64,000 bases of DNA from Mytilus galloprovincialis (Eukaryota > Mollusca > Bivalvia > Mytilida > Mytilidae). This document shows, one piece after another, positions 33,166-61,788 of the stretch (position 1 is the stretch's first letter; every line of letters starts with the position of its first letter). The stretch spans positions 8,476,192-8,540,191 of the forward strand of contig NC_134842.1 in assembly GCF_965363235.1 (NCBI RefSeq), in the 5' to 3' direction. A program made the translations under genes and the position numbers. The notes under the pieces are model-generated. The model saw only the letters and a list, made by a program, of their open reading frames with translations, was not told where the DNA came from and did not search any database.

Positions 33166-33666
33166 CTACATCATATCTTCCATGTCTTCTAGTGGGTGCC
33201 TTATATCGACAGGCATTATTCCATACTGATCCTGGAGTGCTTTTCTGACAGTTGGTGTCAGAAAAGCCGGCATTACTGGACCTAATCTTATATTTTTGAT
33301 GCCAAGACTCAATAAACTAAGAAGAACTGCGACTGCTTTCTGTTCAAACCATGACAATGATAAAGACAAAGGTAAACTGTTAATGTCAGTATTGAGAGCC
33401 GACGCCAGTGCCTGTGCTACCATTATTGCACCATAACTATCATTACACTGTCCAAGGTCAAGAAGTCTTGGGATTCCAGTATTTCCCAGAGTTCCATAGT
33501 CTTTGTCATTGATTCTATATTTGGCACAACCCATAGTAAGTATAAGAGTTTGCGGCGGTAATGAATGTGCCAATGTTTTGAAGTAGTTACGTTTGTGCTC
33601 CGAACCGTCACATCCACCAATGACAAATATTCTCGTCAAATCCCCATCAGCTACTGCTTGGAGAAC
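33166..33666 (-). CDS. hcp: hcp exon 9: C-terminal cluster-binding domain
   Basis: The acceptor ATATTTTAG precedes 33,666, and the exon runs 166 codons to TAG at 33,168-33,166. Ligands are Cys474 (VIGGCDG; the persulfide cysteine position), Cys502 (TMGCAKYR), Cys529 (LGQCNDSY) and Glu563 (SWFEQKA). An insertion of two residues in [10 protein letters not shown] accounts for the longer Cys502-Cys529 spacing. The end, [10 protein letters not shown], resembles bacterial C-termini. Confidence 0.95.
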   Translation of the reverse strand, partial: VLQAVADGDLTRIFVIGGCDGSEHKRNYFKTLAHSLPPQTLILTMGCAKYRINDKDYGTLGNTGIPRLLDLGQCNDSYGAIMVAQALASALNTDINSLPLSLSLSWFEQKAVAVLLSLLSLGIKNIRLGPVMPAFLTPTVRKALQDQYGIMPVDIRHPLEDMEDMM

Positions 33667-33794: not shown

Positions 33795-33833
<39 letters not shown>

Positions 33834-36800
33834 AACAAACAAATCGGACACAAGTTATCACAACTTATATACAGTATATTTTTTAATTCTTAGCATGTGA
33901 AAAAATTGAATAAAAAATACAGAACTCGAAGGGGAGTTTAAAATGGAAAGTCCCTAATCAAAAGGCAAAATCAAAAGCTAAAACACACCAAACGAATGGA
34001 AACGAACTGTCACATTCCTGACTTTGTACAACAGGACGACTGTAGAACCTGAATTTCTTTTATATTTACACATGCAGAATAAAAAACAATTTATGAAATT
34101 CTTGTGAAATTCTTGTATTAATGAGATATATATAAACAAGAATGTGTCCAAAGTACACGGATGCCCCACTCGCACTATCATTTTCCAAGTTCAATGGACC
34201 GTGAAAATTGGTAAAAAATATAATAAGGCATTAAAATTAGAAAGATCATATCATAGGGAACATGTGTACTAAGTTTCAAGTTGATTGGACTTCAGCTTCA
34301 TCAAAAACTACCTTGACCAAAAACTTTAACCTGAAACTCGCACTTTCATTTTCCATATTCAGTGGACCGTGAAATTTGGTGTCAAAAGTTTAATTTGGCT
34401 TTAAAATTAGAAAGATCATATCATAAGTAACATGTGTACTAAGTTTCAAGTTGATTGGACTTCAGCTTCATCAAAAACTACCTTGACCAAAAATTTTAAC
34501 CTGAAGCGCGACAGACGGACGGACGGACGGACGGACGAACGGACGGACGCACAGACCAGAAAACATAATGCCCCTCTACTATCGTAGGTGGGCATAAAAA
34601 TCAGAATAACACAAACTACATGTACTTTTCCCCCCATTATATCACTAGTGTAGCATCGTTCGATTGAGTTATAAATAACAAATCATGTTTATCGATGCAA
34701 ATCGTGGTAGACGGACAGTTTTGACGAAGTCTGTTCAAAAAGAAATCCTACAGAAATTTCAGCGTGATATACCAAAACCTCGATAAATGTAGAGAAAGAG
34801 TGGTACTAGTAAATGAGTTTAAAGACTTCAATGAATTTATATACTAAGTAAGTAACAAAAGCCTTACATAGTCATGTGTATTAGAGATTACTGTTCAATT
34901 ACGTGAATTTAGGATTTAACAAGAATGTGTCCCAAGTACACAGATGCCCCACTCGCACTATCATTTTCTATGTTCAGTTGACCGTGAAATTGGGGTAAAA
35001 ACTTTAATTTGGAATTAAAATTAGAAAGATCATATCATAGGGAACATGTGTACTAAGTTTCAAGTTGATTAGACTTCAACTTCTTCAAAAACTACCTTGA
35101 CCAAAAACTTTAACCTGAAGCGAACGGACGCACAGACGGACGAACGGACGCACAGATGGACGGACGAACGGACGCACAGATGGACGGACGAACGGACGGA
35201 CGGACGAACGGAGGCACAGACCAGAAAACATAATGCCCCTCTACTATCGTAGGTGGGGCATAAAAAATGTGAAACACGATGAAATGATAATACGTTTGCA
35301 ATAGAAGTCAAAAGCATGATATAAGCAATGTTATAATTCAAAACATAAGTTAAGGATTAATAATTATTTGTTTAAGGAAGAAGTAACGAGACAAATATGC
35401 GAGCCGAGAGTCTCAACAATCATGCATAAAATGCATTGCATTTATTTAACTAAACAACATATATTTCAGGACAAGATCAAATTGAACAAATTTCAAACAG
35501 GTCTATTTTTTAAAACGAGGCGACAAGAGTGAAGGTAAGAAATACGACATTCCATGTGAAAAAGATGATATGTTGGATAGGGACAGAATGATAGTACTTC
35601 AATAAACTAACGAAGAGTTGCAGTTCAACCTGCATAATACGGCAATTTCCAAACACAAACATTGGATTTTAATTGAAATCAATGAAACGAATATCTGGCG
35701 TACCGGATTATAATCCTGGTATATTGTGGAGCAAAATTGTTAAAAATATGAACAGACGTGGATGTGTCTTTATACATCCCGCAGAAAATATCTATTTAGT
35801 ATGACTATGGGCAGTATATGAAAGACAAATCTTGACAACACTGATGCAATACTTGTTGTAACACCATCAAATGAAATAGAGTAACAATAACAGTAAAAAT
35901 AAAACAATTCAAACTGTACACAACTCACTTTATCTGCATTATCTAAGATCACCTCTCTTCCAAAGCCAACAGTAAATGTGTTTTTATCAAACTTCTGAAT
36001 TGTCTTATCATCGAATCCTGGAAGTGATTTGGCATGCTGGAAATGAAGAAGTATTATCCTTTTATTATTTCATTGAAGAGTTCCTCTTACATTTATAAAA
36101 TCTAATATCCGCATCTTTTTGTTGAAACAAAAGGATGTGAGTCTATTATATATTACAATAGACTGTGTTTAATTTCTGTTATATTTCTTTTTCAAACATG
36201 TTTTCCAAAATTTATTTCATTGTAGATCTCTTCTATACAAGCACTGCACTTACACTTTCAAATTTTATTATTCGTATCCATTTGTTTGGGGGCATGCAAG
36301 CCTTGTGTATTCATTTATTTCCATATTCTGTGTTTAATTTCTTTCATTTTTATTTCATGAGAAATATTTGTTCTGAATAACAAACTATAGAATAGCTTAC
36401 AATATTATGTATCCGTCCAAGCCAAGGCCGATCATACAAATTATCAAACGGGTATATTTTGATAAGTATCTTATCCTATGAAGGTTGATTTGATAAGTAG
36501 CACTATTCCTATAACTATATAATGCTATTCATATATATCAGAGAGTTGAACCAGATTTTTAAAAAGGTAAATGTAGTCTTGGTCAAAAATTGAACTAATT
36601 GTTTGCAATATTTTCTTCAGGAACGTGTGACGCATTCAATGGATGATCAAGTTATTTGGATATATTATAAATGGTTTCTACTTTACCACAATGACCATAA
36701 CTACAGAACTGGCATGCTGTAAATATTACATTAAAGATTCATTATTAATGAAATCGTTCAGTTTGTAAACCCTGGTGTCGTATTAAAACTCCCTCACACA

Positions 36801-39800
36801 AAATCAACCTTAAGCTTGTTCTTTTGAAGTTCTTCTGGACTAAGGTGCTTCCTACATTTCATGTTATAATATCTCAAACGTGAGGTAAGGTTCAAGTTCA
36901 GGTCACGAGATATCTGATGCAAGTTATTTTACAAAACGTGTCGTTTTTCAAAATTGAAATTGGTATCAATTTTAATATGATAATCACGCGATTTTTACGA
37001 ATAAGCCCGTTTGATGTTAAATTCGCATTGAAATTAAATATACGTGAAATTGATTCGAGTGAAATTTGTCTGTGTATGGAGCAAATTGTTTCTTCATTGA
37101 GCCCTTTTCCACTCCTTTTTTTTTTATTTTAGCGTCACTGATGAGTCTTTTAAAGACGAAACACGCGTCAAATTATCAAACTAGATCTGTGATGAGTGTA
37201 CTATATTTAACCAGATGCATTTTTTTCTGCATTTTCTTAAATGTGAATGTTATTTTGACTTTAAGAAATCATTAAAACTGTGAGTAATTTAATCATTCTT
37301 TGCAAAAAATAAATAACGTAACGCAATAGTGAAATTTTGATTGTCTGTACGTTGTTCTTCGTTTTTCAAATACAAAGCTTATTTTATAACACGGCAAAAT
37401 ACATTAAGGTATCTTATGATGAAATCTCAATGTGTTGCACACTCTTGGGTACACTTCTAGACAAAACTTACCACAGTAGTGAAAATATATACGTGTTAAG
37501 CTTACGTTTATCAATTGAGACATTTCCTCTTTATTTTCCAAATTGATATGTTTAACTCCATGGATTCCTGTCTCGTTCAAAGTATACAGTCTGTCTCTGT
37601 AAGACTTCAAAGGCTCGATAACACAATTTGTTGTTATGACAACTGGTCCTGGAAAAGTTCCAAATTCAATCTTCTGATTCTGCCATGCACTACCAAACTG
37701 ACCAACCAGATTCTACGAGAAGATGAAATGTACTTCAGAAAAAGTTCAAAGTCGAAGTTTAGTGTCATATCTAAGTTTATACGATAAAATTGAGAATGAA
37801 AACGGGGCATATGTAAAAGAGACAACAACCTGACCAAATAGCAGACACCAACCGAAGGCCACCAATGAGTCTTCAAGTCAGAGAGAAAATCCCGCGACCG
37901 AAGGTGGGTCTTAGCTGGTCCCTGAATAAAGTTTACGAAGTTTACTTCATTTTTGAATGCATAGACAAAATTTAAATAACGAAACTTCTTAATCAGATAT
38001 TACAATATGTATCTTCAGATAGTCCAAGATGTATGTTATGTTATTATTGGTCAATCAAGAAAATATTTCTATTTTTCGATATTTGTTTGTTTAAAAAAAA
38101 GTATTATCATTCTGCGTTGTTAAAGGTGACATTTTGGTTTAAGAACAAAATTAAATGCCAACGGGAAGGAATCAAACATATTAGATCACGATAGTCAATA
38201 AACCACCACGACAATGGCTCTCACCAAAAAATGGATAACTGCAAATGTAGGGTAAGAAGGCAGTTCCAGCTCCACTCTTTAGGACATGCATGCTATACAT
38301 AACAGGAAAAAATAGTTTTCTCAGATTTTTATTCTTGAATATGTGTCATTTTTGTATATGTGTATGTACCTTGAACTCTCTCAAAATAGGATAGCTGTGT
38401 GCTGGTAACATCTCTCCGTGAGTGTAGACATTTATTCCTTCTTTTTCAGTCTGCTTCAGTATAGCATAAAGATCCATCAGGTCATGTCCTGAAACCAGTA
38501 TACACTACAATATAGATGTAAACGTTATTTCTTGTACATGGACATTTAAATACAAGCATGCATATAGCGCAAGCTCATAAATACAGTATGTGTGTTATAT
38601 GACAATCAATATCTTAAACTATGCGTTATCTATATCTTATTGAATCACATATAAAAATATGGATGTAAAATAACGAAATGTAATTGTTTGACAAGGCAGC
38701 TTATCTTAAAGTATTTAATTTGCCTTATCCCTTGCTTTTATTAATAGTAAGTCCTTTATTGTCATTCAATTTGATAAAGAAGTAAATTTAAATGCAACAC
38801 GTCAAAAAAATAAAATCACAAAAATGAAAGTTAGGCTGTAGTGATGACATTGTATTTAGTTTGGGTTGTTGTTTTAAGTAGCTGAATACAACAATTTGCT
38901 TTCTGAGGGAAAGAAGACAAAGCAAATTAAAAAAATGTAGATCGGCGACCAACTCCTTAGTCAGTGTGTCATAGCAGCATACATTCGGGTAAAAACTTGA
39001 TACTAATAGCTTTAGTCAATGCATACTGGTCAACAAAAGCAACGACACATGACAATACATTCCCATATAAAACTAAATTTGTATCAAGGAACCTAACTAC
39101 AAAATATGGTCAAAAGGGGTTGGTTTTGTTTACATGTTGGTTGTTTTCGTCAAAACCATCTATTCAAACCAAAAAACCAAATTTTTATATTCTCAATAAT
39201 TGATTTATAAAAAAAGTTATTTTCCCAGAATTTTATTATCTTGAAAATTGAAAAAAATAAATTCAGAAAATCGCTTCGGACGCGCGAAATTGAAAGTGCT
39301 ATTTTCGTTGCAATACATTTGTAGGCTCTTTCTGGCTTGCTCAAATTCTTCTTATTGATAATTAATAGTATACCTTTCCTGCGACAGGGGCTCTATTTAC
39401 TTCAGAGGGAGATGGTATACCAAGCTGCTTCCGGTGACCTTTATCTAAAAGCTCCATAACTCGAAGGTTTATTTCTCCAACTTTCAAAGCCAGTTTGAGA
39501 TTCGTAGTCAGATCATGACGTTCTTCTTCTGTTCCACTTGTCAAAAAGTCCAATACCTGAATGGCAAAGTGCATCAAACCTCATCATTTTTAAAGATTTT
39601 TTTTAATTTTCAAATTTTTCAATTTATCGCGTCTTTCTCGTTAATACAATACAAAATTACAAATGTATATTAATTTGAATTTTTCACGTATGGTTTTGTT
39701 GCAGAAACTTTCCCTCAATAAAACATAATGCATAATTAAACAAGTGAAACTGCGAGCTACTGCTCACTGATGATACCCCCGCCGCAAGTGGATAATATTA

Positions 39801-42800
39801 ATAGTGTAAAAATATGCAAGTATTCAGTAAACAGGGAGTTATCGAGTGATGACTCTGAAAACGCTTCACACGGTATAGCTGACTTATATAAACCTTGAAA
39901 CCAAATTTCAGAAATCCTTGTATTGTAGTTCCTGAGAAAATTGTGACGAAAATTTTTAACTTGGCTATCTTGGGTAAAATCATACAAGTGTTTGGTAAAC
40001 AGGAAGTTGTCAAGTGATGAATCTGAAAACGCATCACACGGGAAAATTTTTAACTTTGCTATCATGTGTAAAATCATACAAGTGTTCGGTAAACAGGAAG
40101 TTGTCAAGTGGTGAATCTGAAAACGCAAGATCCATCACACGGTATAGCTGACTTATATAAACCTTGAAACCAAATTTCAGAAATCCTTGTATTGTAGTTC
40201 CTGAGAAAAATGTGACGAAAATTTTCAACTTGGCTATCATGTGTAAAATCATACAAGTGTACGGTAAACAGGAAGTTGGCGAGTGATGAATCTGAAAACG
40301 CATCACACGGTATAGCGGACTTATATCAAGCCTGAAACCAAATTTCAGAAATCCTTGTATTGTAGTTTCTGAGAAAAATGTGACGAAAAATATTCATGGG
40401 ACGGACGGACTGACTGACAGACTGACGGACTGACGAACTGACGGACTGACGGAAGGACAGACAGAGGTAAAACAGTATACCCCCCTTTTTTTCCAAAGCG
40501 GGGGTATAATAAACAGCTGCGCCATGAGCGCATGATACGCCCGACGCCTTGTGTGGAAGTTTTATGCAATAATCATAAATAGTTTCTGAGAAGTTTTAAG
40601 CAATAACCATATATTGTTTTTGAGATACGGCGGGACATGAGAACCCCCCCCCCCCCTTTTCTCTCTTCTTTTTTTTTACAAAAAAAAGTAAATATCACTC
40701 AAATAAAATTTTGTATCAATACCAAACAATATACAGATCTTAAGATTAATATAACAAAGAATTGTGTAATGTTTTAAGAAATAATCATAAATTGTTTTTG
40801 AGATACGGCGCGACATGTAAAAAATCCCTCCCCTTTTTTACAAAATACGCAATAACTCAAAAATAAAATATTGAATCATCACCAAAAAGTATACAGATCT
40901 TCAGATTAATATAACAAAGAGGTGTGTAAAGTTTTAAGCAGTAATCATAAATCGTTTTTGAGATACAGTGCTACATGTGAAAAAAACACTCCCCTGTTTT
41001 AGTTACAAAGTGCCGTAACTCAAAAAGTTTTAATCTTATTTTCACCAAAAAGTATACAGATCATTTGACCATCATAAGAAACAACCATATTAAGTTTCAT
41101 GAAATTTGGAAAAGTCGTTCTCAAGTTACGGTGCGACATGTTTACGCCGAACAGACAGACGGACGGACGGACGGACGCAGGACATTTGTATACCATAATA
41201 CGTCCCGTCAAAATTTCGACGAGCGTATAAAAAATAGAAATTCCATTTTTTTCTTTTTTATTTCATTAGTCTAATATTATATACTTCAGTAAGTGAGCTT
41301 CATTTTCGTCTAAAATTTTCAGGTGTCGCTGTTTCCGTTAATGCCGACTCGAGAAAAACTTTGTAATGTGAAATTCGCTTACCAAAAATGTTCGACAAAT
41401 AAATAAATGCAAGGATTTAAAAGATTTTTTTACATATTATAGGATTACATAAAGCATATTTTCGATCTTAATCGGTCTATATACCTCGTATAAGGAAGTG
41501 GAGACCTCAGGGTCTTCTTCCCCAAGCGCATTAGCATGGCAGGCGTATGCAGATAATCCTTTAATTCCATATATGGTCATGTAACGAACACCATTCACAT
41601 CTGGTCCATAAATACTCTGGTTTTCTAATACACCAACTTTAAGACCTACATTTACAAAGAAAACAAAGTTATAACGATAAGTCGGTAATAATTCATTCGT
41701 GATCACCACCCATCTTATTATTCATATCAAGTTTCAAAAATAAAGTGATCCAATATTAGCTTATATATAATAGTATTTGTTATTGAAGGCACATGCTATG
41801 TAAAATTGTTCTACTTTAATGTTAGATTTTTTTTTAAATGAGTACTGTTTAAATCAACTAAGACACTCGTTTCGTCTACATAAAATTTAAAAAAGAAAAT
41901 TTCGAAATATTTTGTCATAAGACATAAAAAAAAAAAAAAAAACTGAAGCCCGCATTCCGGTTCGGAATTTTCTTGCTGTGTTGAAGGTCCATCGGTGGCT
42001 TTCGGCTGATTTCTGCTCTTTGGTCGGGTTGTTGTCTCTTTTACACATTCTCCATTTCCATTCTTAATTTTATAGTAGGCAAATAATACATAGAAGTCAA
42101 CCATCTACCGATTGACCAGAGATTGACAGCACATATTTAATGATTTTAAGATACATTTACGAAGTGCGTTGATCTTCGTCAACTTGGTCAACTGGTGAAT
42201 AAATGATGACTGTTCTATTTCAAGCCTTAAATACGTGCAAAATTATTCTTGAAGATGGGATTTTAAAATCAAACGAATAAAACTTCTCTGTATTATTATT
42301 TGTGTTTAAGTAGACGAAAGCTACCGAGTTTCTCGTGTGGTAAATTTGTACTATCTCACCGAGTCGAACTTTTAAAATGCACGTATCTTAAATTGCAATA
42401 AGCCGCAGGTAGGATATCACCCTTCAATCCTTTGGCTAATGACTCAAGAAGCCAAACAATATTTGTTCTTATTTCTAATCGTAGTTACCGAGTTTTCGGT
42501 GGAGCAGCATTGATAATACAACTGATTTGACCAAGGTGGGATTACAGCTTAAGACCTCACTTACTCGAGCTAAGCATGTCACAACAAAGATCACACGGTG
42601 TTTCGGGTTGTTTTTATACTCAAGTCTTTTTCTTTATTACCATGTAATACATATTTTATTTCGATAAGTGAACACGTCTTAAGTTTACAGGATTTTCTAT
42701 AACAAAGTCAGTTGGTAGTGGTACCGAACCAATCTCAATCACAAACCACAGGCACTTTTCTCAGAAAAAGAATCCTATATACCTTCAATCTAATTAAATA

Positions 42801-45800
42801 CCGATCTATCATCGCTTCCGTTTTCTGATATGTCGCGTCCCGACATATCAGAAAACGGGAGCGATGAGAGATCGGTTTTTGGAAAATTGACGCTTTCAGC
42901 GGCATGATTCCGATACTATTGACCTGAACTTCCATTACATTTCTCTACCTTCCGCGCTTGTTTCGTATTTACTTTCCATTACATGTCTCCGCCTACCGCG
43001 CTTTGTTTCGTATTTACTATTTTACATACAAACTGGAATCTGCTTGTGTTATCATTATTGTGTAGTAATCAACCGGGAACCAGCAAGAACAAGTACATAA
43101 TTTATTTACAGAATAAAACATTTCGTCCAGCCTCTGACTAATCAGACCGTATCACCATGGACCGTATCACCATGATCGATCTCGATAGTTTAGACTTTGT
43201 TACGTTCGTACACATATATTTGACGATCTTTTCTGCATTACTTGTCAATCTAAACCTCAAATATGTTCAAATAACATAGAAAGGACGTTATATTACTAGT
43301 CCGGTCGGGCTAGCGATAATTAAAATTTACTAGTCCGAGTTGAAAATTTAATACTAGCCTAGTCTGGGGCATCGGGCTGGTGCACGTGGTTAACGACGCA
43401 GACTCGTCACTGGGCCGGTCCGACTCAATCTTTGTCTACAAAGTTACAGCAGCAGAGTCTGTAACAGACTGTATCTGTATGACATGTCAATAAATTGTCA
43501 ATGTTGATGCTGACTTTAATACAACGGTTTGAGAGATCGCCGCCGATTTATTGGCGGGGTGTGAAAATGTAAAGCAAAATTATATCCGGGTGAAATTTGA
43601 TCCGGAGGAAAAAATGTCACAGTAGTTGTTGTTATTTTTTTATCCGGAGGAAAATATTTCCCTGGGATATTTTGTCCTTTGCCGTGAAATTCTATCTGGG
43701 TAGTTAACTTATTGAATAGTTATTAGAAAAAAACTTATCCTTTAAAAATACTATGAAATAATAATAGTGTATTTGAAATAAAGCGAAATTGTTAAAAAAA
43801 AAATGTATTATAATGGGAAATAATTTCACAAATTATCCTTGAAAAAATTTCCTGAAATATTCAAGTCAATATCATCCTTTTAAAAAGAAAATTATCATGA
43901 AACAAAGGGAAGAATACCAGAAGTAATTTCAAAGATCGTAATTGTGAAAATAATATCATGATTAAATAAGGTTAGTGAAATACATGTAAAAGTGAGTTGT
44001 TTTCAGATCTCAGTACAAATATAAATTTAAAAGTAAGGTAGAAATATAGTTGCATTACTACTGTTAACAGTAATAGAATAATTTGATTATGATGATATTT
44101 TTAACTATATAAATAGTTTTGTCTGGTGACAGAGATGTAGTTGTTGATTATATGGAAATCAGATAAATCATAGCATATCAATATATTTGAACAAAAGCAT
44201 GTTTAACAGCTGGATAGTTTTTACCTGTGAAATGTTGTCTGTCTTATTAAATCAAGTTGTAAGTCATCTTTTTATATAAATGAATATATATAAAAAAATA
44301 AGATTCATGGAAAAATTTCACTATAAAATAGATTCACAAATATATTAAATTAATATCTTTAAAATATAAATTGCTCATAATTACCTCCCTTTGATAAATT
44401 ATGCAAATTTGGTCTACCTTTGTGAAACATTTTATAATTATAGTCAGGTATATATTGATTGTGAGTAACTTTCATAGTAGTTAATGGGACTCTATTTCAC
44501 ACGGTTCTGTGAAATATAGTACGGCAAATATATACCGGTACATACTATCCGCATAACACAGATAGATTTTCCCTCCTCTGGAAAAAATCAACCTGTGAAA
44601 TACTATGCCTGGAAAAAAATTACCGGGACAAATTATCCTCAGGATAAAATATCACAGAGGAAGAAATAAACCGTTACAAAAACAGATTTGAAGCTCTCTA
44701 CGTTTGATGCGTGCACAACAGTGTCGTCTAGCTTATTCTTCACTTGCTTTTCCACAATAATTGTTGCATGGTATTCTTTGAATTTCTCAGCAGTTATTGT
44801 TCTCTTCGGACATGCTTTTTTGAGGAATTCGTCTGGTTCAATAGCGTGAATCAGCCCCTCAACTACTTTTTATATAAATACTTATTTTGGCTTCAACGCC
44901 TTGTTCGTCCTTGTCTGGAGATCTTGTTGTAGATTCCAGACAAGTTCCAGTTTGGCAAGCATTTTTGGAGACATATTCTCTTGACTTGTAATCTCTGGTG
45001 ATAAATTTTGCGGCTTAACATGTATCCTCTCAAGCTTGTTTATTTTTGTTACCGGACAGGGGGCGTATACTATGCATGGCTCCATATTAAATTTTGAGAT
45101 CAATTCCAAAAGGTTTAGTTCATTGTTATAATCTGACACAATAACTGGAATGCCACCCAAGTTGAATATATGGTGACCCATTATAACAGCATAATTACTT
45201 GAAATTGTGTTTAATACCATGATGGTTCAATGCAATGGCATAAACTCAAATGGAGACAGAAATTTGACATGAAAGATGATGGTTTAGTGCAACATAAAAA
45301 AAAACTAGCTAACTATCATATATGGTTAAAGAATGAATATCAATTATATGAGTCATGGGCAGAGTTGTTATAAAATATCAATATGGCAGAGAAGTGGTGT
45401 CAAGTTTCATACAAAGCGACCTGACTGACATGAAATAAAAAATCAAAGGAGTATCCCTATTTGTCTAATCTTCAAGGTGAAATAAAACTAGTATAACAAT
45501 ATTATGCTATTGTGTAAATCTACAGAAATCGAATTTACTTCAAGTAAAAGAAATAACTATGTCGCTAGTAACTTACAAATGTATGTAATGAGTATGTGGG
45601 TAATTAGTCCTATAACATATGACCTCAGGAGCATTATTTACTATTTCTATTTACTGTTCTGATAAAAAAAAATATACTATCATTATAAAAACGTTAAAAA
45701 TTGAATTTAGTATGTACAAAAAACAGGCCAGTAGTCATTGGATATTGTAGATCATTTAAATAGTCTTGACCTATTTATTAGTACAAAAAACAGCTAGTAG

Positions 45801-48800
45801 TCATTGGCTATTGTAGATCATTCCAGTATTCTTGACCTATTTATTTGTACAAAAAAAACCCAGCGAGTAGTCATTGGATACTGTAGATCATTCAGGTAGT
45901 CTTGTCTCTTGACCTATTCATTTGTACTAAAAAAAACAGCCAGTTGTCATCTTCACTTCACACACACATATACGGATATCAATTATATGCTTACGAGACA
46001 TGTTGCAATGTTAAACTTATTACAGTATGTGAAAATCAAGACTTGCATAAATATATCCCAATATTAGAGGCAGTGGCGTCATTTTTCCTCAGAGCTTTCA
46101 GCTCTTTGATTAATTAGATTGATATACTTTAATAAATGGTTATATAAAGGTATATATAGGGATTATTGTTTTTCCGAGACAAGTGCCTGTGCTTAACCTC
46201 CGCAAATACAAAAACTTCGTTCCATTGTAAATCGTTGACAAGACTTAGTATCAGTACGTAGCATGCCATAGTTATTTACCTTCGTCTTCTAAATATGTCA
46301 AATCATATGATTCTGGAACCCAGCTAGCAGGACCATGCTTGAGTTTTTCGTCAAGAGGTTGCGATGATTTTTCCTCCATAATTTTCTTGATGGCATCGCG
46401 ATGGTAGATTGCAGTTTTGATATATTCCGGAAAGCGATCCTGGTCAAAGTTCACGTTTGTCAATGTGCTGTAAAGTAAGAGCAAATAGTAGTCTCAAGCA
46501 GACAATAAAGTAGTTTAATATATAAATAATGATATTATTTTAATGTGTATCCCCATAGTGTAAAGTATTGCTTTATCGACGAAAATATTGCATATTCCTA
46601 TCTTTATGTTCGGTGCTTAAAAACAAAGAATGCAAAAGTCAGTACAGACAAATACATTGCCTATGTTTAAATATTCTGAACAATAAGTATGCACCTCGAG
46701 GCAGACACCCATATGAAGACTTTGAAATACTAGCATCTATGATTTCGTTCTTCAGACAGTGACTCTTAACCGCGATGGCTATCATTTCCAAAAGATTGTG
46801 TGGATTTGCGTGGTGCCTTAATTGGTCCGTGACTGACTTAAAGTATATAACTATGCCTAAGCCTTATTTTAGTAATTGGTATTGGTATCTGATAAAGTCA
46901 TGTCGATTATAAGATACAGAGTTTTTTTTTTGCTTTCAAATCTTTCTGTTTGAACCCGTCGACCTGGAACTTATCAATTATTGGTAATATTAATTATTTG
47001 GAAAACAAAAGGTCCTGGCTATCAGTGGCGTAGCTTGCATGTATGCTCAGATGCTCATGCATCCACAAAATTTTGACAGGGGAAAAAATATAAATGAAGA
47101 TATGTTCGCAGCAGTTAAACTCGGAGGTATCCGTATGTAACAATTAAGGGTTAGGATATGAGGATAACATCCAATTATTTCCGATGAAGTATGCGTGGTC
47201 TTTTATTAAGGATAATTTAGTTCATGTAATAAAACAAGATGGATAAATCGCAGAATAGTGTTCTCGATTTTTTTTCGTAAAAAGATTAATTACGTCGTCG
47301 GCTACGGCAAGTGCAGAGGACGATGCACAGATCCTCGGACATGTTTCATCTGAAATTGAGCCTAGCGTAGCGATGGCTTCTACAACTGACTAACAACATA
47401 ACTGACAACTAGACCACCATATCCTGATATCGTTTCCGGTGACATGAAAGACGACGTGAAAAAAAACTAATCTATAATAGAGTGTGATCATTCCTTGGCT
47501 TATCAGTAAATTCCAGTTTCTATATAGGTCCACATATTAATTTGATTTTCAATAAAAGAACGAAGTTCAATGTCCCCTGCATTGCACATATTTTATGTAA
47601 CCAAGGAACAAGGGCAATAACTAATAAAAAATAATGTTTTTACTTTTCCTTTTATTTTTAATGGAGAAATAAAAGCTTCAATCTAATTAAAAACCGATCT
47701 TTCATCGCTCCCGTTTTCTGATTTGTCGCGCTCCCACGCGACATATCAGAAACGGGAGCGATGAGAGATCCGTTTTTAATTAGATTGAAGATCCGTTAGA
47801 TTGCAAGTAAAAGCTTTAGAGAAAATGCAATGGGATTTCCGTTATAATTTATAATTCAAAAGGTCAAAGCTTAGGACTTATTTTCGAAATTGTCATTGCT
47901 GATGATATAAAAATCTGGCAAGAATTGTACACATGAGAGTGCAAACAAGACCGGATGGACGGACACCAGGAATTTCGATGATGTCCCCTGCGACGCGTTA
48001 ATGGGATCACTTCAGTTCCTATATTCCGAAGAGCCGCTGTGATGAGGCCGTTTTTTGACAAATGCTAGGAAAGGGGATCACTTCAGTTCCTTTATACAGA
48101 AGTGCCGCTGTGGTGGGACCGTTTATGAGATGTCAAATGTAAGATTGGTGGGAAACTTTTACATCAAATAAATAACTTATGAATTACATTCAATTTCGAG
48201 AATTTCGAGTAAACATTAAAATTTTGTTTGAAATATAATTATATGAATTCGTGGGTATTTTGAAATTAAACAAAAATCTAACCAGTTTTGCTTTTTGTCC
48301 GATTATTTTGCTTTTTGTCCGATACTTTTGCTTTTTGTCCGTTGCTTTTTGTCCGTTTTGCTTTTTGTCCGATAATTTTGCTTTTTGTCCGATACTTTTG
48401 CTTTTTGTCCGTTGCTTTTTGTCCGTTTTGCTTTTTGTCCGATAATTTTGCTTTTTGTCCGACACTTTTGCTTTTTGTCCGTTTTGCTTTTTAGCTCACC
48501 TGCACCATAGGACTAAGTGAGCTTTTCTCATTTTCTCATTATTCGTCGTCGTCATTAATTTTTACAAAAATCTTCTCTTCTGAAACTACTGGCAAAATTA
48601 AAGCAAACATGGCCAAAATCATCCTTAGGGTATTTAGTTTCAAAAAAGTATCCGATGACCCCGCCCAATAATTAAGATGGCCGCAATGTCTAAAAGAAGA
48701 GCATCGCATAAAATGTAGATTTTGGCTTAATATATATCTGAAACAAAACCATAGAGACAATCTAACAAGGGATAAGAACATTTCGCCTCATAAAATAATG

Positions 48801-57800: not shown

Positions 57801-59504
57801 GCAAAACGGACAAAAAGCAACGGACAAAAAGCAAAAACGAACAAAAAGCGAATTGCGGACAAAAAGCACCGTATCAGTCGGATTCTAGGGGAGTACATGT
57901 GCTTACAGGAACAATGTCTGAAAAAAATATAATTTTCTGCATAAAATAGTCCAAAATATTTTTCGCCTCGCTCCGCTCGGCAAAGGCATCCACATCATTT
58001 CAACCCTGGCTATCCAGGAATGGAGTATTTTTTAATCAACAGCATTGTCCTATATTAGTTATCTTAGAAAGTCTTGCTGATTGCTGAATAAAACTACAAT
58101 AGGGAACAATTTGACAATGATAGAATTTAGTAGTGTCAGCCCTTTGATTATGACCCGTGTATATAGCAAAATCCTAAATACACCGTTTGGTGGTGCGCCT
58201 GTCAAATGCGGAACGTACATATAAGGTAATAGCTAACAGGTGAATATACTACATGTATTGGTATCGGTATCGGATTCGACCCGGAACTTGTTAATTATTG
58301 GCAATATTAATTATGTGGAAAACAAAGGGTCTGGAGTGGTGTTATTTTTAATCTACACCATTGTCCTATATTAGTTCTATATAGAGTTGAATTCTTTGAT
58401 TTGTCGTTTTTACCCGATGACGGATGACAAATTGGACCTCGTAATTTTTGTATTATAGATATATGCCCTGTCGTAACCTTACGCTATGCAGAACTTATGA
58501 GACATATACTTTTTATTTCTGCTTTATACGGGCGTTTATTCTAAATTAGACTAGTTATATTCACTTTTGCCTTTATAGCAGAAATAGATATTATATATAC
58601 AGACATAGGAGCCTTTGTGTCAGTTAAGAGGGTCTTGGTGGTAGGTCTTCATTTTTACATTCTATAATGTTAGGCCATTCTATAATGTTAGGCAATTTTC
58701 TCTATTAAGATTTGTTTTTGACAATTATTTTCTAATCTTTATATTTTATCACCCAATTAATCTATTTTTTTTAAATTTATATCCTTTTTATCTATTCTTT
58801 ATTATTATGGTCATCCTTTTCTATTGTGTATATTCCCATACCCGATGTTTAGAACAAATTCATCTATCCCAAATTGTATTTAATCGAAAAAATTCCTCTC
58901 TTTGTCCATGCTTTATGTCTATCTTCTTTAAGAATATTTTATGTACCTAAACATAGCTTGCTGTATAAATAGGTCACATTCTTTAGACATAGTGATGCCT
59001 GATTTAATAGCTCTATTGGCATACATGGACAACCCCTGCACAGCATACATTAGTAGATCTTGTAGTGCAGATACCTGTGACGTTTTACCGCATACTCCTA
59101 CGGTTACACAGCCTTTCCGGCTCTTGGTCTGCTCGCACTGGAAACAAAACATGTCTGAAATAATAGTGCAAATACAATAAATCAATATATTAAAGGGAAA
59201 CGATGGTCAAACATATATCCGGGTCGAGCAACCGTGTTAAGATATTGTGGTTTTATAACATGACTTGTTTATTTGTATATCACTAGATGATGCCCGTGAA
59301 ATCGTGGTACAATGAATTGGGCAAGTGTTGAAACAAAAAATTTTAAATTTCGCGTGCAGTACTTCGACTGAAAGCTTATAAGACACGGATCGATAACGGT
59401 CTCCGAAGTGTGTAATTTCTCAAAAATTGGCGTTTTCTGTGGAAAAGGATTGTTTCAAAGACAAATTTGGGAAGTACAAAACACTACATTTATACGTCAT
59501 ATCA

Positions 59505-59538: not shown

Positions 59539-61788
59539 ATGCGGCTCAATGAAATCAGTCTCTTCCTTTAGTCATGTTAGTAGTATAGAAGAAGTCCGAC
59601 AGTACACATTGGAGCACTTACCAAAAATAATACCTAAACGATAAATTTGTTGGCTATCAAAGACTTATTGATATGTTCAATGATTTGTATAGTTACTATA
59701 CCAATCTTGATTTACTTAAATACATGTGAAAAACTTCCTTTTGATCCCCCTTTTCTGTTGACTCATTATACATGAAAAAGGGGTTAAAAAAAGTTGGAAG
59801 TTTTGCGAATATATGTATGAGTGCTTCAATCCAATATACATGTATGGTTTGATTAAACACGTGTTCTGTAGGAAATTTGTGAGCAATTGCCATCACTTGT
59901 TGTCTGTCCTATTTATTAAAAATCTTCTCTTAAACAAAATCTGTATTCAAGTTGAAATCGAAATAATCAGCAAAATATTTTTTACCAAAAATATGTTTTA
60001 AGGCTTCAATGGAGACAATCTTATTTCTATTCATATAATAATTGGGACTTGTTCCATCGTATTATCTGTACTTAAAACTTAGCGAAAACTCAAACTACAC
60101 CATTATAGATATTTCAAGGTATCTTTTATGTTTAGTTAAAAAAAGAACTCTGCTTCTTGTATTTTTCAAATTACGAAATCTTCAACGATTTGTTTTTCAG
60201 TGACTCAAATAGGTGAAATGAAAAAATTATTGTCAAGTCATGGTACAAAATTTGCATAGTGCAAGTACGTGACTGAAGCTCGGCACGTATACGCTTATTA
60301 GGATTTTAATATAAGAAAAGAATCGATAAATCACTTGATAATCTCCGTATTCACTGTATCAGATAAGATTACGAGGAAATTTCAGTAAAAAATGAACTTT
60401 TATTAGAAGCCCAACATGTATAGCTTCACTTTGGTATATTAATCTCAAGCAATGATATTTATTGGCGTATCACATCACCCTATGCTGTATATATTTAACT
60501 AAAGTACTTTATGGGAAGGGTTTGGTAGGATGAATAGGTAATCTGATTTAACAGTTCTGCGTTTAATTTAATGGTATTTTGATTGATCTACCCGGATGAA
60601 TATTTGATAAAATGCATTCAACCAGAATACAGTTAACATTTAAATTGTAATTTACGTTCTATCATACCGACTTTAACATGCTGTAACAGTTTGTTTATCA
60701 CTTGGTGCAATAATTTGAATATATATTTAATACACTTCACAAACTTGATGTGCATTAAACTTTTAAAAGATAGAGGGACACTAGGGTATTGAATTTGTAA
60801 ATCTTGTTTTTGTTGCATCAGTTTTTATTTTGTACAGCTTTATTTATTTTCTATCAATTTCCACATTTGCCACATTTGCCACATTTGCCATTACTACCTC
60901 GTCTCTTTCCTACATTTTCTACAACAAACTTTAAACAGGTTGTCGATTGACTCCTATAGAATAGAATGAAATATTTTTATTTCCCAAATTACACGTCCCA
61001 TATAACAATATATATTGAGAGTAGAATTACCAAATTACAGGGCCCATAAAGGATATAAAAATATACTTTGCGAGTAGAATTAGCAACTAACGGAATCCAA
61101 TATGAGTATAAGAACATGATATTCTAGAGACCAGGCCACACAAAAACTTTGACTCCAAATAAGACGGTTTTTTTCTATTTCATTTTTCCTTTACCCAAGG
61201 TATATCTATCAACAAACGACTCATCAAACTGGCGAGCGTTATTACCTTAAGGGGTTCCTTACCTTTATGTTGCGTCAAGTTTAAATATTTTTTTTAGCAA
61301 AAATGTGCATTTCTTAACTTCACTTTATATATATATATATACATAACTTTATTGCAAAATGGTCAATCCCTGACGGGTTTGTTTGTACATATCATGACAA
61401 AAATTCATAATCAAGTTAATTTTAAAAGTTAATATTAATAATATATAGATGAGTTTATATATTTGTTGATCATGATTGATCAGAATATCAACAGCTCTTT
61501 TCCCGTGTTCCTATCGTGTAACGATGCTAAAAACGGGGACATTCAATTTTTACATATACACTGTCACACTTATTATTTATATATGCGTCTCATATTCAGC
61601 ATTTAGTACCTACCCGGTTTGACAAAGTCTGAAGTTGCAGCAGCAGCAGTTCCAAGCTTCCGAACATTATGACCATAGTTCTTTGACTGCAACTGGGTTC
61701 CCGTAAAATTCCATGCAGAAGAGCAGTATGCACTGTTTATCCATTTGTTACATCCAGATAGAAAACTTCGTCTTAACATGATACTCAT
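33166..61788 (-). CDS. hcp: Hybrid cluster protein (prismane / hydroxylamine reductase family), mitochondrial
   Basis: Nine exons: 61,788-61,614, 59,154-58,947, 46,467-46,280, 41,645-41,485, 39,556-39,374, 38,504-38,370, 37,712-37,506, 36,036-35,929 and 33,666-33,166. All junctions are GT-AG and phases agree, giving 1,866 nt and 621 residues. Residues 1-59 form a presequence with Arg6, Arg7, Lys15, Arg43 and Lys44 and no acidic residue before Asp54, typical of mitochondrial import. The core starts at Met60 and is about as long as class I bacterial Hcp (about 553). Cubane ligands are Cys62, 65, 74 and 80 (C-x2-C-x8-C-x5-C, class I spacing). Hybrid-cluster ligands are His312, Glu336, Cys380, Cys474, Cys502, Cys529 and Glu563, with spacings nearly those of the Desulfovibrio enzyme. 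Family members reduce hydroxylamine and nitric oxide and can act in S-nitrosylation. The physiological role in an animal is inference. No frameshift or stop was seen. Confidence 0.93.
33801..33830. repeat. (GA)n microsatellite
   Basis: An uninterrupted GA dinucleotide run of 30 bases in hcp intron 8. Confidence 0.95.
33890..34080. repeat. Dispersed repeat (partner of 3,060-3,260)
   Basis: Contains AATCAAAAGCTAAAACACAC, AACGAATGGA and CACATTCCTGACTT in the same order as 3,060-3,260. Located in hcp intron 8. Confidence 0.65.
34137..34602 (+). mobile_element. Non-autonomous element with GGAC/GGACG tract, copy 1
   Basis: It begins AACAAGAATGTGTCCAAAGT and ends CTATCGTAGGTGGGCATAAA. Internally a unit of about 190 bp (CACTCGCACT...ACTACCTTGACCAAAAA) is present twice, followed by a GACGGACG tract at about 34,510-34,550. 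The reverse ORFs rich in RPSVRPS-type repeats are translations of this tract, not genes. Confidence 0.8.
34919..35265 (+). mobile_element. Non-autonomous element with GGACG tract, copy 2
   Basis: Same ends as copy 1 (AACAAGAATGTGTCC and GTAGGTGGGGCATAAAA) but only one internal unit. The GACGGACGAACGGACGCACA tract is longer, at about 35,123-35,215. Same orientation as copy 1 and 320 bp away, in hcp intron 8. Confidence 0.8.
35929..36036 (-). CDS. hcp: hcp exon 8: short connecting exon
   Basis: The acceptor CATTTCCAG precedes 36,036 and the donor GTGAGT follows 35,929. It encodes 36 codons (residues 420-455) containing [16 protein letters not shown], which aligns with the VGFG-x2-x-L-x2-AD segment of Hcp. 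No metal ligand falls here. Confidence 0.92.
37133..37170 (+). ncRNA. Hammerhead-like core (copy f), truncated
   Basis: On the plus strand CTGATGA at 37,138-37,144, a 13-nt stem-loop II with GTCTT/AAGAC arms (five pairs), then GAAAC. Stem III is lost because the sequence after ACGCGTC diverges. It lies in hcp intron 7, antisense to the gene. Confidence 0.45.
37506..37712 (-). CDS. hcp: hcp exon 7: hybrid-cluster ligand Cys380
   Basis: The acceptor TTCTCGTAG precedes 37,712 and the donor GTAAGC follows 37,506. It encodes residues 351-419: [17 protein letters not shown], then [15 protein letters not shown] with Cys380, then [17 protein letters not shown]. All are in register with bacterial Hcp. 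Confidence 0.93.
37780..37925 (-). repeat. GGTCGGGTTGTTGTCTC repeat, reverse copy
   Basis: Reads GAGACAACAACCTGACCAAA, then CGAAGGCCACCAATGAGTC and AGCTGGTCCCTGAATAAA. The same order appears at 62,365-62,515. It lies about 65 bases upstream of exon 7 of hcp. Confidence 0.8.
38370..38504 (-). CDS. hcp: hcp exon 6: hybrid-cluster ligands His312 and Glu336
   Basis: The acceptor ATATTGTAG precedes 38,504, and 45 codons end before [18 protein letters not shown] contains His312, and [11 protein letters not shown] contains Glu336; both are ligands of the hybrid cluster in known structures. Conservation in this exon is very high. Confidence 0.94.
39374..39556 (-). CDS. hcp: hcp exon 5: linker between domain 1 and the Rossmann-like domains
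   Basis: The acceptor CCATTCAG precedes 39,556, and 61 codons in phase 0 run to a GTATAC donor. It encodes residues 245-305 with [17 protein letters not shown] and a PSPSEVN stretch. The usual TYGHPTPT-type sequence of bacterial homologues is replaced by KQLGIPSPS. Confidence 0.9.
39733..40511 (+). mobile_element. Non-autonomous element with internal 170-180 bp repeats
   Basis: It begins near AACAAGTGAAACTGCGAGC and ends CCAAAGCGGGGGTATAATAA. The inner unit (CGGTATAGCTGACTTATATA...AAACAGGAAGTTG...GAATCTGAAAACGC) is repeated about three and a half times from 39,840 to 40,390, followed by a GGACGGACTGACTGACAG tract. The overlapping reverse ORFs repeating [15 protein letters not shown] peptides are products of the repeat. 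Confidence 0.8.
40513..41215 (+). mobile_element. Non-autonomous element related to 14,851-15,163
   Basis: It begins CAGCTGCGCCATGAGCGCAT and ends TATACCATAATACGTCCCG. The block TTTTGAGATACGGCG with AATAATCATAAAT and GTATACAGATC recurs at intervals of about 130-180 bp (40,615; 40,800; 40,960; 41,050). A GACGGACGGACGGACGCAGG tract lies near the right end. It abuts the preceding element, so one probably inserted next to the other. Confidence 0.7.
41485..41645 (-). CDS. hcp: hcp exon 4: domain 1 helices
   Basis: The acceptor AAATGTAG precedes 41,645. It encodes residues 191-244, including [18 protein letters not shown], which matches the conserved GLKG-x-AAYA-x-HA segment of Hcp. It ends exactly on a codon before GTATAT. 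Confidence 0.92.
41940..42075 (+). repeat. GGTCGGGTTGTTGTCTC repeat copy
   Basis: CTGAAGCCCGCATTCCGGTT through TGAAGGTCCATCGGTGGC to TTTGGTCGGGTTGTTGTCTC. Same orientation and block order as 26,187-26,325. In hcp intron 3. Confidence 0.75.
42785..42885. repeat. Palindromic element (ATCGCTCCCG family), copy 1
   Basis: The left arm CCGATCTATCATCGCTTCCG to CTGATATGTCG and the right arm CGACATATCAGAAAACGGGA to GATCGG are inverted copies that meet at a short centre near 42,838. The right outer part of the arm (AATTAGATTGAAG) is missing, so it is less complete than the copy at 47,677-47,786. Confidence 0.85.
43550..44670. repeat. AT-rich region with inverted CCGGAGGAAAA / CCTCTGG blocks
   Basis: TCCGGAGGAAAA-type blocks at 43,600-43,700 and TCCTCTGGAAAA or ACAGAGGAAG blocks at 44,570-44,660 are loosely inverted around 900 bp of AT-rich DNA. 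The resemblance is partial and I could not define the ends. It may be a decayed inverted-repeat element in hcp intron 3. Confidence 0.3.
44882..45220 (-). CDS. Unrecognised 112-codon ORF within hcp intron 3
   Basis: Open from ATG at 45,220 to a stop at 44,882, on the same strand as hcp but not spliceable into it without disrupting a conserved region. The sequence has natural-looking composition, with [20 protein letters not shown], a [15 protein letters not shown] segment and a basic C-terminus. No signal peptide, membrane span or known motif was identified. It could be a remnant of a transposon protein or a retrocopy fragment. An ORF of this length can also arise by chance in 64 kb, so reality as a gene is doubtful. 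Confidence 0.25.
   Translation of the reverse strand: MVLNTISSNYAVIMGHHIFNLGGIPVIVSDYNNELNLLELISKFNMEPCIVYAPCPVTKINKLERIHVKPQNLSPEITSQENMSPKMLAKLELVWNLQQDLQTRTNKALKPK
45713..45955. repeat. Tandem repeat, about 65-75 bp, three and a half units
   Basis: TTGTACAAAAAACAG...AGTAGTCATTGG...ATTGTAGATCATT...CTTGACCTATTTATT repeats from about 45,713, 45,780, 45,845 and 45,920, with length changes in the A-run and a CTTGTCTCTTGACC variant. In hcp intron 3. Confidence 0.85.
46280..46467 (-). CDS. hcp: hcp exon 3: domain 1 helical region
   Basis: The acceptor TTTACAG precedes 46,467. The split Ser128 codon is restored, giving STLTNVNFD, a well-conserved Hcp motif. The rest (residues 128-191) is a charged helical segment ending in DLTYLEDEG. 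The donor is GTAAAT. Intron 2 upstream is 12.5 kb, the largest in the gene. Confidence 0.92.
46670..46830. repeat. Dispersed repeat, copy 2 (partner of 900-1,070)
   Basis: GAGGCAGACACCCATA, GACTTTGAAATAC and CCAAAAGATTGTGTGGATT match 900-1,070. Downstream, at 46,945-47,030, GGAACTTATCAATTATTGG matches 58,285-58,330, linking this family with the copy at 58,460-58,945. In hcp intron 2. Confidence 0.7.
47677..47786. repeat. Palindromic element (ATCGCTCCCG family), copy 2
   Basis: Nearly perfect palindrome: CTTCAATCTAATTAAAAACC on the left and its complement on the right, with ATCGCTCCCGTTTTCTGAT and TGTCGCG in each arm. The arms are about 52 bp with a short centre. No ORF. In hcp intron 2, about 5 kb from copy 1 in intron 3. 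Confidence 0.9.
48000..48135. repeat. Direct duplication, about 68 bp
   Basis: GGGATCACTTCAGTTCCT followed by GCCGCTGTG occurs at about 48,003 and again at 48,075. The second copy reads GTGGTGGGACCG where the first reads GTGATGAGGCCG. Confidence 0.8.
48285..48495 (+). repeat. Tandem array of TTTTGCTTTTTGTCCGA, 71-bp higher-order unit
   Basis: A 17-bp unit TTTTGCTTTTTGTCCGA and a shorter GCTTTTTGTCCGT variant alternate. The GATAATTTTG variant recurs every 70-72 bp, so the array is a higher-order repeat of about three blocks. It is open in all three forward frames. The reverse complement of the same array is at 57,635-57,870. Confidence 0.9.
48493..48850 (+). repeat. AGCTCACCTG-type dispersed repeat
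   Basis: Starts TTAGCTCACCTGCACCATAG followed by a TAAGTGAGCTTTTCTC palindromic edge, TCGTCGTCGTCATTA, AACTACTGGCAAAATTAA and AATTAAGATGGCCGC. I recall this layout as a frequent bivalve repeat. It begins directly at the end of the TTTTGTCCGA array. Confidence 0.65.
49793..50815. mobile_element. 1.0 kb inverted-repeat (foldback) element
   Basis: The left arm 49,793-50,075 and right arm 50,530-50,815 are inverted copies: AAGAAGATGTGGTATGATTG against CCACATCTTC; AGGTCACCGTACGACCTTCA against GAAGGCCGTACGGTGACCT; and CAAACGACAACCACTGAAT against ATTCAGTGGTTGTCGTTTG. The 450-bp centre contains the TTAGCGGGATCCCAACCCTC block seen also near 62,670 and 63,640. No transposase. It may be one palindromic element or two head-to-head copies of the dispersed family of 1,590-1,900. 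In hcp intron 2. Confidence 0.85.
50990..52984. other. Intronic DNA without recognised features
   Basis: hcp intron 2. AT-rich, with a C10 run near 51,380. Short ORFs at 52,548-52,872 overlap in three frames and have no family features. Confidence 0.4.
52985..54083. mobile_element. 1.1 kb non-autonomous element with internal repeats and a GCC tract
   Basis: It begins AACAAGAGTGCACACACTG, followed by five to six degenerate units of about 175-185 bp marked by ACTGAACCATGAAAATGAGG, TCAAGGTCAGATGA and ACATGTACA. It ends with a GCCGCCGCCGCCGCCGGATC tract (54,006-54,035) and TATGTCGAGCTTTCTGCAAC. It resembles in design the GGACG-tract elements at 34,137-35,265: unique start, tandem units, GC-rich microsatellite, unique end. 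In hcp intron 2. Confidence 0.75.
54870..57495. repeat. Degenerate satellite, about 170-bp units, with orientation switch
   Basis: Unit blocks in the forward sense are CTACCTCTGGTATCATGGCC, GGAGAATCTC, TAGTTTGGCCAGCCGGCAAT, TTTATTTCGACTT, GACAAACTCGTACGGGTCTA and GGCCATTTTAAAGGCAATG. From 54,870 to about 55,440 three units run in reverse orientation (GATTCTCCACG, CCCGTACGAGTTTGAC). From about 55,460 to 57,495 some twelve run forward. Units differ by 15-30 %, indicating age. In hcp intron 2. Confidence 0.85.
57635..57870 (-). repeat. Tandem array of TTTTGCTTTTTGTCCGA, reverse orientation
   Basis: Reads CGGACAAAAAGCAAAA with ATAATCGGACAAAAGGC recurring every 71 bp. It is the same higher-order structure as 48,285-48,495 but inverted and 9.2 kb away. 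A GGACAAAAGG variant (one base different) distinguishes this array. Reverse ORFs of 69-102 codons across it are products of the repeat. Confidence 0.9.
58460..58945. repeat. Dispersed repeat, copy 2 (partner of 1,105-1,560)
   Basis: CTGTCGTAACCTTACGCTAT, AGGGTCTTGGTGGTAGGTCT and ATTTTATCACCCA match 1,105-1,560. It ends at about 58,945, immediately downstream of the donor of hcp exon 2, so the 5' end of intron 2 consists of repeat sequence. Confidence 0.7.
58947..59154 (-). CDS. hcp: hcp exon 2: N-terminal [4Fe-4S] cluster motif
   Basis: The acceptor is TATTTCAG before 59,154. The exon restores a split Asp59 codon and then reads MFCFQCEQT and [11 protein letters not shown], giving the cubane ligands Cys62, Cys65, Cys74 and Cys80. 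It continues through [19 protein letters not shown], the conserved first helix. The exon ends in phase 2 before GTACAT. Its Met60 corresponds to the start methionine of bacterial Hcp proteins. Confidence 0.93.
59310..59590 (+). repeat. Dispersed repeat (partner of 22,528-22,710)
   Basis: CACTACATTTATACGTCATA, AATATTTCCGACTTTG and GGCTCAATGAAATCAGTCTC match the earlier copy. In hcp intron 1. The 78-codon ORF at 59,408-59,644 crosses it and is not supported. Confidence 0.7.
59600..61613. other. hcp intron 1, no further features
   Basis: AT-rich. A 10-bp unit CCACATTTGC is repeated three times at 60,861-60,890, and a (TA)n tract lies near 61,328-61,345. No exon or RNA gene was seen. Confidence 0.45.
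61614..61788 (-). CDS. hcp: hcp exon 1: mitochondrial presequence
   Basis: The first ATG of the frame is at 61,788. The 175-nt exon encodes residues 1-58 plus one base, starting [13 protein letters not shown] and rich in Ser, Ala, Asn and basic residues. The donor is GTAGGT at 61,613. An alternative GTACTA donor 4 bases downstream would break the frame with exon 2. The exon contains presequence only; none of the conserved Hcp core is in it. Intron 1 is 2,459 bp. Confidence 0.85.

Follow-up and report, generated by a model that had tools for sequence, protein, structure and literature searches.

The hybrid cluster protein (Hcp) is usually regarded as prokaryotic, with a few protists possessing it as well, and it is best known from anaerobic microbes. 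Members of class I are recognized by the N-terminal motif C-x2-C-x7/8-C-x5-C, a [4Fe-4S] site, while class II, the E. coli type, has the spacing C-x2-C-x11/13-C-x6-C and class III has lost the three-helix bundle subdomain. The partner of Hcp in E. coli is the NADH oxidoreductase Hcr. Reduction of NO and a disputed hydroxylamine activity have been described for E. coli Hcp, and a mitochondrial HCP2 for Chlamydomonas, in the available text of two papers (PMC7412212, PMC8003979), the latter of which placed the family in prokaryotes and 'some primitive eukaryotes including microalgae'. According to the same text, the Chlamydomonas proteins HCP1-HCP4 are eukaryotic and organelle-targeted, as is presumed here for a mussel Hcp, whereas they differ from the latter in that three of the four are predicted to be plastidic, in being recent duplicates, and in being raised by nitrate and darkness in a phototroph. 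Among protists, transfers of Hcp have been argued for the Trichomonas, Entamoeba and diplomonad types (PMC1484493, available part).

Animal Hcp seems to be hardly studied. Only two reports of an animal Hcp gene were found in the open-licence literature, as far as the available text of each goes. One is a hydroxylamine reductase cDNA of Riftia pachyptila, an Hcp-like transcript from the plume of an annelid that is likened to Hcp by its description, which was a single clone and possibly a bacterial contamination in the opinion of its authors (PMC2175520), and the other is a 2017 clam genome paper that lists the Hcp family (PMC5499747). Neither a study devoted to animal Hcp nor a paper describing the gene structure, tandem array or function of a bivalve Hcp was found in that literature, although other work may exist. 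NCBI already carries the names 'hydroxylamine reductase-like' in Mytilus trossulus, Mercenaria and Dreissena and 'HCP-like' in Mya, and with the bivalve gene named by automatic annotation and two papers touching on animal Hcp, the novelty implied by the first-pass annotation of the present locus is reduced.

The DNA analysed here, termed the window, is a 64,000-nucleotide stretch of the Mytilus galloprovincialis genome (G000:C5:8476192-8540191), which is located in a contig of 102,992,780 bases within an assembly of 1,384,861,812 bases and 331 contigs. An Hcp gene occupies positions 33166-61788 on the reverse strand and consists of nine exons separated by eight introns, all of them with GT-AG junctions and matching phases, and the uninterrupted spliced frame comprises 621 codons and a stop (Table 1). 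In the splice modelling, the exon 1 donor and both ends of exon 6 were left free, and a single combination gave an open frame; the remaining junctions were set by eye. Start, end, exon number and protein length as proposed in the first-pass annotation were all reproduced exactly, and its central claim of a real, intron-bearing animal Hcp gene is supported by the GT-AG spliced frame, the matches to Hcp family models and the 97% identity to a protein of M. trossulus. Exon 2 begins inside codon 59, directly ahead of Met60, which is the start point of bacterial Hcps.

Table 1. Features of the Hcp locus of M. galloprovincialis; positions are those of the window unless given with the contig
Feature	Position	Strand	Description
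Exon 1	61614..61788	-	Residues 1-58; net-positive N-terminal extension; no ligand; presumed mitochondrial presequence
Exon 2	58947..59154	-	Enzyme proper begins (M60); all four N-terminal cluster ligands, C62, C65, C74, C80
Exon 3	46280..46467	-	No ligands
Exon 4	41485..41645	-	No ligands
Exon 5	39374..39556	-	No ligands
Exon 6	38370..38504	-	Hybrid-cluster ligands H312 and E336
Exon 7	37506..37712	-	Hybrid-cluster ligand C380
Exon 8	35929..36036	-	No ligands
Exon 9	33166..33666	-	C474, C502, C529, E563 and stop codon
Hcp intron 2 remnants	767..1486	-	72-74% to 46518-46827 and 58454-58863; 5' edge of copy B, its exons just outside the window
Copy B	G000:C5:8475318-8468729	-	Exons 4-9 and the first dozen or so codons of exon 3
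Copy C	G000:C5:8435071-8427200	-	Exons 4-9 and the first dozen or so codons of exon 3
Copy D	G000:C5:8400248-8383080	-	Exons 3-9; exon 9 without its first 23 codons

As regards the flanking bivalve repeats invoked in the first-pass annotation, what was observed is that intronic segments of the gene turn up again elsewhere within the 206-kb neighbourhood. Repeats of about 170 bp lie in an Hcp intron at positions 34130-35266 and recur at several spots of the same neighbourhood. Two adjacent frames in intron 3 (44639-45226, reverse strand; 114 and 76 amino acids) were considered as extra Hcp exons and rejected, as they match no Pfam family above the cut-off and the open frame is complete without them.

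The deduced protein was matched by NCBIfam NF003658 with 667.6 bits (cut-off 367), by TIGR01703 with 644.7 bits (cut-off 360.8) and by the Pfam family Prismane, PF03063, with 454.9 bits over residues 60-606 (cut-off 27), and the Hcp models cover it from residue 60 to the end; the only other profile matches were distant carbon monoxide dehydrogenases below the cut-off (45.4 of 478 bits). For comparison, a set of 336 rows was aligned. Besides the window protein it comprised 255 proteins, chosen for their closeness to one of the queries (mussel, Owenia or P0027), and 80 prokaryotic loci, chosen for their closeness to an alignment of eukaryotic rows plus one bacterial row. Animals account for 27 rows, namely the window protein and 26 proteins, 16 of which are without a species name, and Hcps of Trichomonas, Entamoeba and diplomonads were not identified among the 336 rows. 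This alignment bore out the earlier statement that all 11 cluster ligands are present: no substitute residue occurs in any of the 11 columns, which contain 0 to 4 gaps each, and the complete set is kept in 26/27 animal rows, the exception being P0028, whose N-terminus is missing. Via the M. trossulus protein, the seven hybrid-cluster residues of the mussel (one His, two Glu and four Cys) align with those of the Desulfovibrio vulgaris chain 1e2u that we take to be its hybrid-cluster ligands.

With the motif C-x2-C-x8-C-x5-C, the mussel protein has the spacing of class I, a label that the first-pass annotation had given and that the N-terminal motif bears out. Among solved structures, however, the highest score goes to the E. 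coli Hcp (7de4, 488 bits), which has the other spacing. The latter possesses the same hybrid-cluster ligands by alignment, but it lacks a presequence and its N-terminal cysteines are spaced x2-x11-x6 instead of x2-x8-x5, so that the mussel protein falls outside class II despite the top score. The class I Hcps of D. vulgaris and D. desulfuricans (1e2u, 1gn9), which are bacterial and likewise have no presequence, share the spacing of the four N-terminal cysteines and the same 11 ligands by alignment, while scoring lower than E. coli (410.8 and 415.7 bits). Membership of class III is contradicted by the helices from 83 to 288, which are present in the model of the M. trossulus homologue, and by the class III chains, which align over 416-418 columns only. 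Among the 80 prokaryotic loci, the 8/5 spacing was observed in 43, 11/6 in 26 and other spacings in 8, and no motif was seen in 3.

The structural model was made for M. trossulus P0001, which is 97% identical to the window protein and served as its stand-in. It was predicted to adopt the Hcp fold with a mean pLDDT of 81.6, parts of the N-terminal cluster loop (65-72 and 74-77) remaining below 50. Target TM scores ranged from 0.90 to 0.94 against five PDB entries representing four bacterial and archaeal Hcps, with 0.92 for the E. coli protein, 0.90-0.94 for the two Desulfovibrio proteins and 0.92 for the archaeal one.

Ahead of the enzyme proper, the mussel protein bears an extension of 58 amino acids with a net charge of +6 and one acidic residue, and extensions of 54-71 amino acids with a net charge of +4 to +10 were found in 21 of the 27 animal rows. 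The remaining six include P0005 (30 amino acids, +1), P0025 (37 amino acids, +1) and P0016 (24 amino acids, charge 0, without a starting Met), together with P0011 and P0024, which have no extension, and P0028, a fragment without the motif; at least some of these six are incomplete sequences. All six prokaryotic Hcp proteins that were measured (the 80 loci being outside this count) begin at the motif. In the M. trossulus model, residues 1-54 have a pLDDT below 50, and between the two Mytilus species the mature part is identical in 548/563 columns and the extension in 52/58, the faster change of the latter fitting a presequence that is freer to vary than the constrained enzyme it precedes. Judged by its length, charge, predicted disorder and recurrence, the extension is probably a mitochondrial presequence, and this presequence-like exon 1 is an addition to the first-pass annotation.

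Counterparts in other bivalves, whose absence the first-pass annotation had named as grounds for doubt, were found, together with relatives in annelids and a brachiopod. The best 120 of about 8000 matches include ten named animals, of which seven are bivalves (Mytilus trossulus, Mercenaria mercenaria, Mactra antiquata, Dreissena polymorpha, Mya arenaria, Sinanodonta woodiana and Solemya velum), two are annelids (Owenia fusiformis and Helobdella robusta) and one is a brachiopod (Lingula anatina). No oyster, scallop, gastropod, vertebrate, arthropod, cnidarian or sponge appears among the named matches in these lists of the best 120 of about 8000, most entries of which are without a name. M. trossulus is 97% identical to the mussel protein over the full length and the other animal rows 52-74%, as against 43-49% for the best 80 prokaryotic loci (best segment, with M. 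trossulus as reference). The bivalve hydroxylamine reductase-like proteins of M. trossulus (P0001, 97%), Mercenaria (P0008, 67%) and Dreissena (P0012, 64%), which are named by automatic annotation only, share the basic extension and the 11 ligands and are apparent orthologues. The close relatives P0002, P0003 and P0004 lie on contigs just 2.3-3.2 kb long, which can nevertheless be read without interruption over some 620 codons. The mussel gene, by comparison, takes up 28.6 kb, so that these contigs are probably transcripts and would provide indirect evidence of Hcp expression in relatives.

In a FastTree analysis of the 336 rows, the 27 animal rows formed one clade with a support of 1.0, and all 86 identified prokaryotes (80 loci and 6 named proteins) fell inside a single clade of 216 rows with a support of 0.966. 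The other 130 rows of that clade are unlabelled, and the 58 rows treated as eukaryotic, 27 of them animal and 31 assigned by source or name, all lie outside it. An IQ-TREE analysis of 73 chosen rows under a site-mixture model recovered the animals and the six choanoflagellate-like rows at 100/100 each and the nine bivalve-type rows at 100/99, with 24 prokaryotes on one side at 100/97, and a quick tree of 96 rows concurred on the animals, the prokaryotes and the choanoflagellate-like rows. The Chlamydomonas protein P0114 (47% identity) was placed on the eukaryotic side of the 73-row tree, and the eukaryotic lineage that holds the mussel gene, as resolved from these protein sequences, also includes algal and other protist proteins. 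Within the animals, Sinanodonta lies outside Mytilus and the sampled heterodonts (100/98 in the 73-row tree), which departs from the accepted species order.

Beyond the gene itself, which was the subject of the first-pass annotation, three 5'-truncated, decaying tandem copies of exons 3-9 were discovered, most of which lies outside the window (copies B, C and D in Table 1, the window gene being copy A). A whole-genome Prismane search returned 13 matches (15 candidates scored), all on one stretch of contig C5, and within 206 kb exons 1 and 2 were detected only in copy A. Each of the other copies is damaged: the exon 6 acceptor AG has become AA in copy B, copy C has a premature stop in exon 5, and copy D has a premature stop in exon 3 and has lost the start of exon 9, and with it the GGCDG ligand region. 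By BLAST, B, C and D all start at one position within intron 2, window 58863, which lies about 84 bp beyond exon 2, and upstream of this 5' edge they share further DNA with each other, while A matches there in short repeats only; their common ancestor was therefore probably already without exons 1-2.

Comparison of A and B over 407 codons of exons 4-9 gave 54 synonymous and 9 nonsynonymous changes, corresponding to a dN of 0.0095, a dS of 0.233 and a dN/dS of 0.041, and the ratios of the other pairs were 0.069 (A-C), 0.126 (A-D), 0.137 (B-C), 0.158 (B-D) and 0.211 (C-D). Between B and C, 17 nonsynonymous changes were counted against 33 synonymous ones. The alignable introns differ at 334/3565 positions between A and B (0.094) and at 290/4336 between B and C (0.067), and half of the A-B value and the whole of the B-C value, each multiplied by about 950 sites, predict some 45 and 63 nonsynonymous changes where 9 and 17 were observed, respectively. 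With introns that divergent, the small number of nonsynonymous changes is not merely a matter of youth, and the three copies, despite having no start, seem from their sequences to have been under constraint for much of their history.

In exon 9 of copies B and C (G000:C5:8469226-8468726 and 8427697-8427197), 17 synonymous changes occur in 144 codons, a divergence that seems to exceed those of the nearby intron (7.3%) and the 3' flank (5.0%); a mosaic history, the one explanation offered, may account for the excess. The array is also occupied by other genes: at 26889-29874 of the forward strand, separate open frames of the window encode an nSTAND3 NTPase domain and, behind it, ankyrin repeats, and three nSTAND3-ankyrin genes in all (the others from 8421203 and 8461597) accompany another ankyrin fragment. 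These genes may be the reason for the amplification of the array.

Taken jointly, these results are read by us, with moderate confidence, as a functional nuclear Hcp of the mussel that has descended vertically within animals from a eukaryotic lineage, carries a mitochondrial presequence and reduces NO in the matrix at low oxygen. The gene structure, the ligand residues, the conservation and constraint, the phylogeny and the predicted fold of the 97% identical homologue are the parts of this reading that the analysis establishes directly. In the mechanism proposed, exon 1 would supply the mitochondrial presequence, behind which a 562-residue enzyme would hold a cysteine-bound cluster (exon 2) and an Fe-S-O hybrid cluster with residues from exons 6, 7 and 9. 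In the matrix, electrons would flow from reduced ferredoxin or a flavoprotein reductase to the N-terminal cluster and then to the hybrid cluster, where NO would be converted into N2O at low oxygen (2 NO + 2 e- + 2 H+) and hydroxylamine possibly into ammonia, and cytochrome oxidase and Fe-S enzymes would thereby be shielded. We infer the activity, mitochondrial location, electron donor, substrate, timing and anoxia role by analogy, the NO-reductase role in particular being carried over from bacterial Hcp, and handling of NO, hydroxylamine or S-nitrosothiols during hypoxia or air exposure, which the first-pass annotation had put forward, may belong to the same picture.

Several other explanations have to be weighed against this reading, of which two concern the origin of the gene. 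Since Hcp is chiefly prokaryotic and even the tubeworm cDNA was judged a possible contamination in 2007 (PMC2175520, available text), a suspicion may arise that the gene is a bacterial contaminant or was recently transferred from bacteria to mussels, but the eight spliceosomal introns, the decayed tandem copies alongside and the greater identity to another Mytilus and to other animals than to the prokaryotic loci contradict it. The confinement of the prokaryotes to a clade without eukaryotic rows makes a recent bacterial transfer unlikely, no signal of recent bacterial contamination emerged in the trees that had been proposed as a check, and the location of the gene inside a 103-Mb contig of a 1.38-Gb Mytilus genome renders contamination untenable, a verdict that the first-pass annotation had reached as well; the probability of such an origin is negligible, and short of an assembly that joined two organisms it is already refuted. 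It is possible, but rather unlikely, that the animal (spiralian) stem acquired the gene long ago by horizontal transfer, with another eukaryote or an unsampled bacterium as donor, in place of vertical descent from early eukaryotes. Such a transfer would agree with the restriction of the named animals to bivalves, annelids and a brachiopod among the matches listed (best 120 of about 8000), with the finding that the choanoflagellate-like clade is not the nearest sister of the animals in the 73-row tree, and with the patchy occurrence of protist Hcp, for which at least two transfers were argued in the available part of PMC1484493. Against it, the animal clade sits among eukaryotic rows, and a constraint uniting animals with prokaryotes costs 23.6 log-likelihood units and is rejected, if narrowly (p-AU 0.039), whereas a union with the choanoflagellate-like rows costs 8.4 and is not rejected (p-AU 0.278); constraint tests and trees together therefore indicate an old origin of the animal gene and a position among eukaryotic sequences.

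The remaining alternatives concern what the gene and its copies do. The decay of all three tandem copies, with stops in C and D, the lost exon 9 start in D and the AA acceptor in B, could suggest that the window gene is itself a drifting relic with little or no expression, which is nevertheless very improbable in view of a frame and splice sites without lesion, the retention of all ligands, a difference from M. trossulus in 15/563 mature columns, and the contrast between dN and dS of A and B in exons 4-9. Alternative use of the downstream exon 3-9 copies, now or recently, as 3' halves joined by splicing to the one existing exon 1-2 module would explain how copies whose shared 5' edge places the loss of exons 1-2 probably in their ancestor still display a dN/dS of 0.137 (B-C) and 0.041 (A-B), with nonsynonymous counts below the intron-based expectation, and it would suit their common strand and the preserved phase from exon 3 to exon 4. 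However, every copy is defective at present, and skipping of exon 6 in B would delete H312 and E336. The units do not diverge evenly over their length, a pattern suggestive of gene conversion or unequal crossing-over. Selection may in truth have acted on the nSTAND3-ankyrin genes, which the array multiplies too, and the A-B value could partly stem from constraint at a time when the copies were still complete and had exons 1-2. Cassette use, which we consider improbable, may thus be mimicked by gene conversion of uneven extent, a former existence as complete genes and recent decay. A stronger competitor, to which we assign appreciable weight though less than an even chance, is that mussel Hcp acts mainly as a hydroxylamine reductase, a protein S-nitrosylase, another stress enzyme or an anoxic electron sink for ferredoxin rather than as an NO reductase. 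The available text of PMC7412212 and PMC8003979 reports or proposes that Hcps reduce hydroxylamine, carry out S-nitrosylation and compete for reduced ferredoxin, and sequence alone cannot separate these activities from NO reduction, while the low affinity of E. coli Hcp for hydroxylamine and its high-affinity NO reduction, as given in the available text of PMC7412212, speak against them.

Following the favoured reading of a mitochondrial, NO-reducing Hcp, it may be suggested, quite tentatively and with the odds rather against it, that bivalves and other spiralians have retained from early eukaryotes a mitochondrial enzyme of their own for reducing NO to N2O; if this is true, N2O would come from the hypoxic animals themselves as well as from their microbes. 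With an Hcp that is conserved in animals and bears a presequence-like extension, the mitochondrial handling of NO and nitrosative stress in facultatively anaerobic animals is opened to testing, and the formation of N2O by an enzyme of the animals' own, as well as the membership of Hcp in the early eukaryotic mitochondrial toolkit, likewise becomes testable. Such a protein also provides grounds to revisit animal Hcp transcripts that have been dismissed as contamination, such as that of Riftia.
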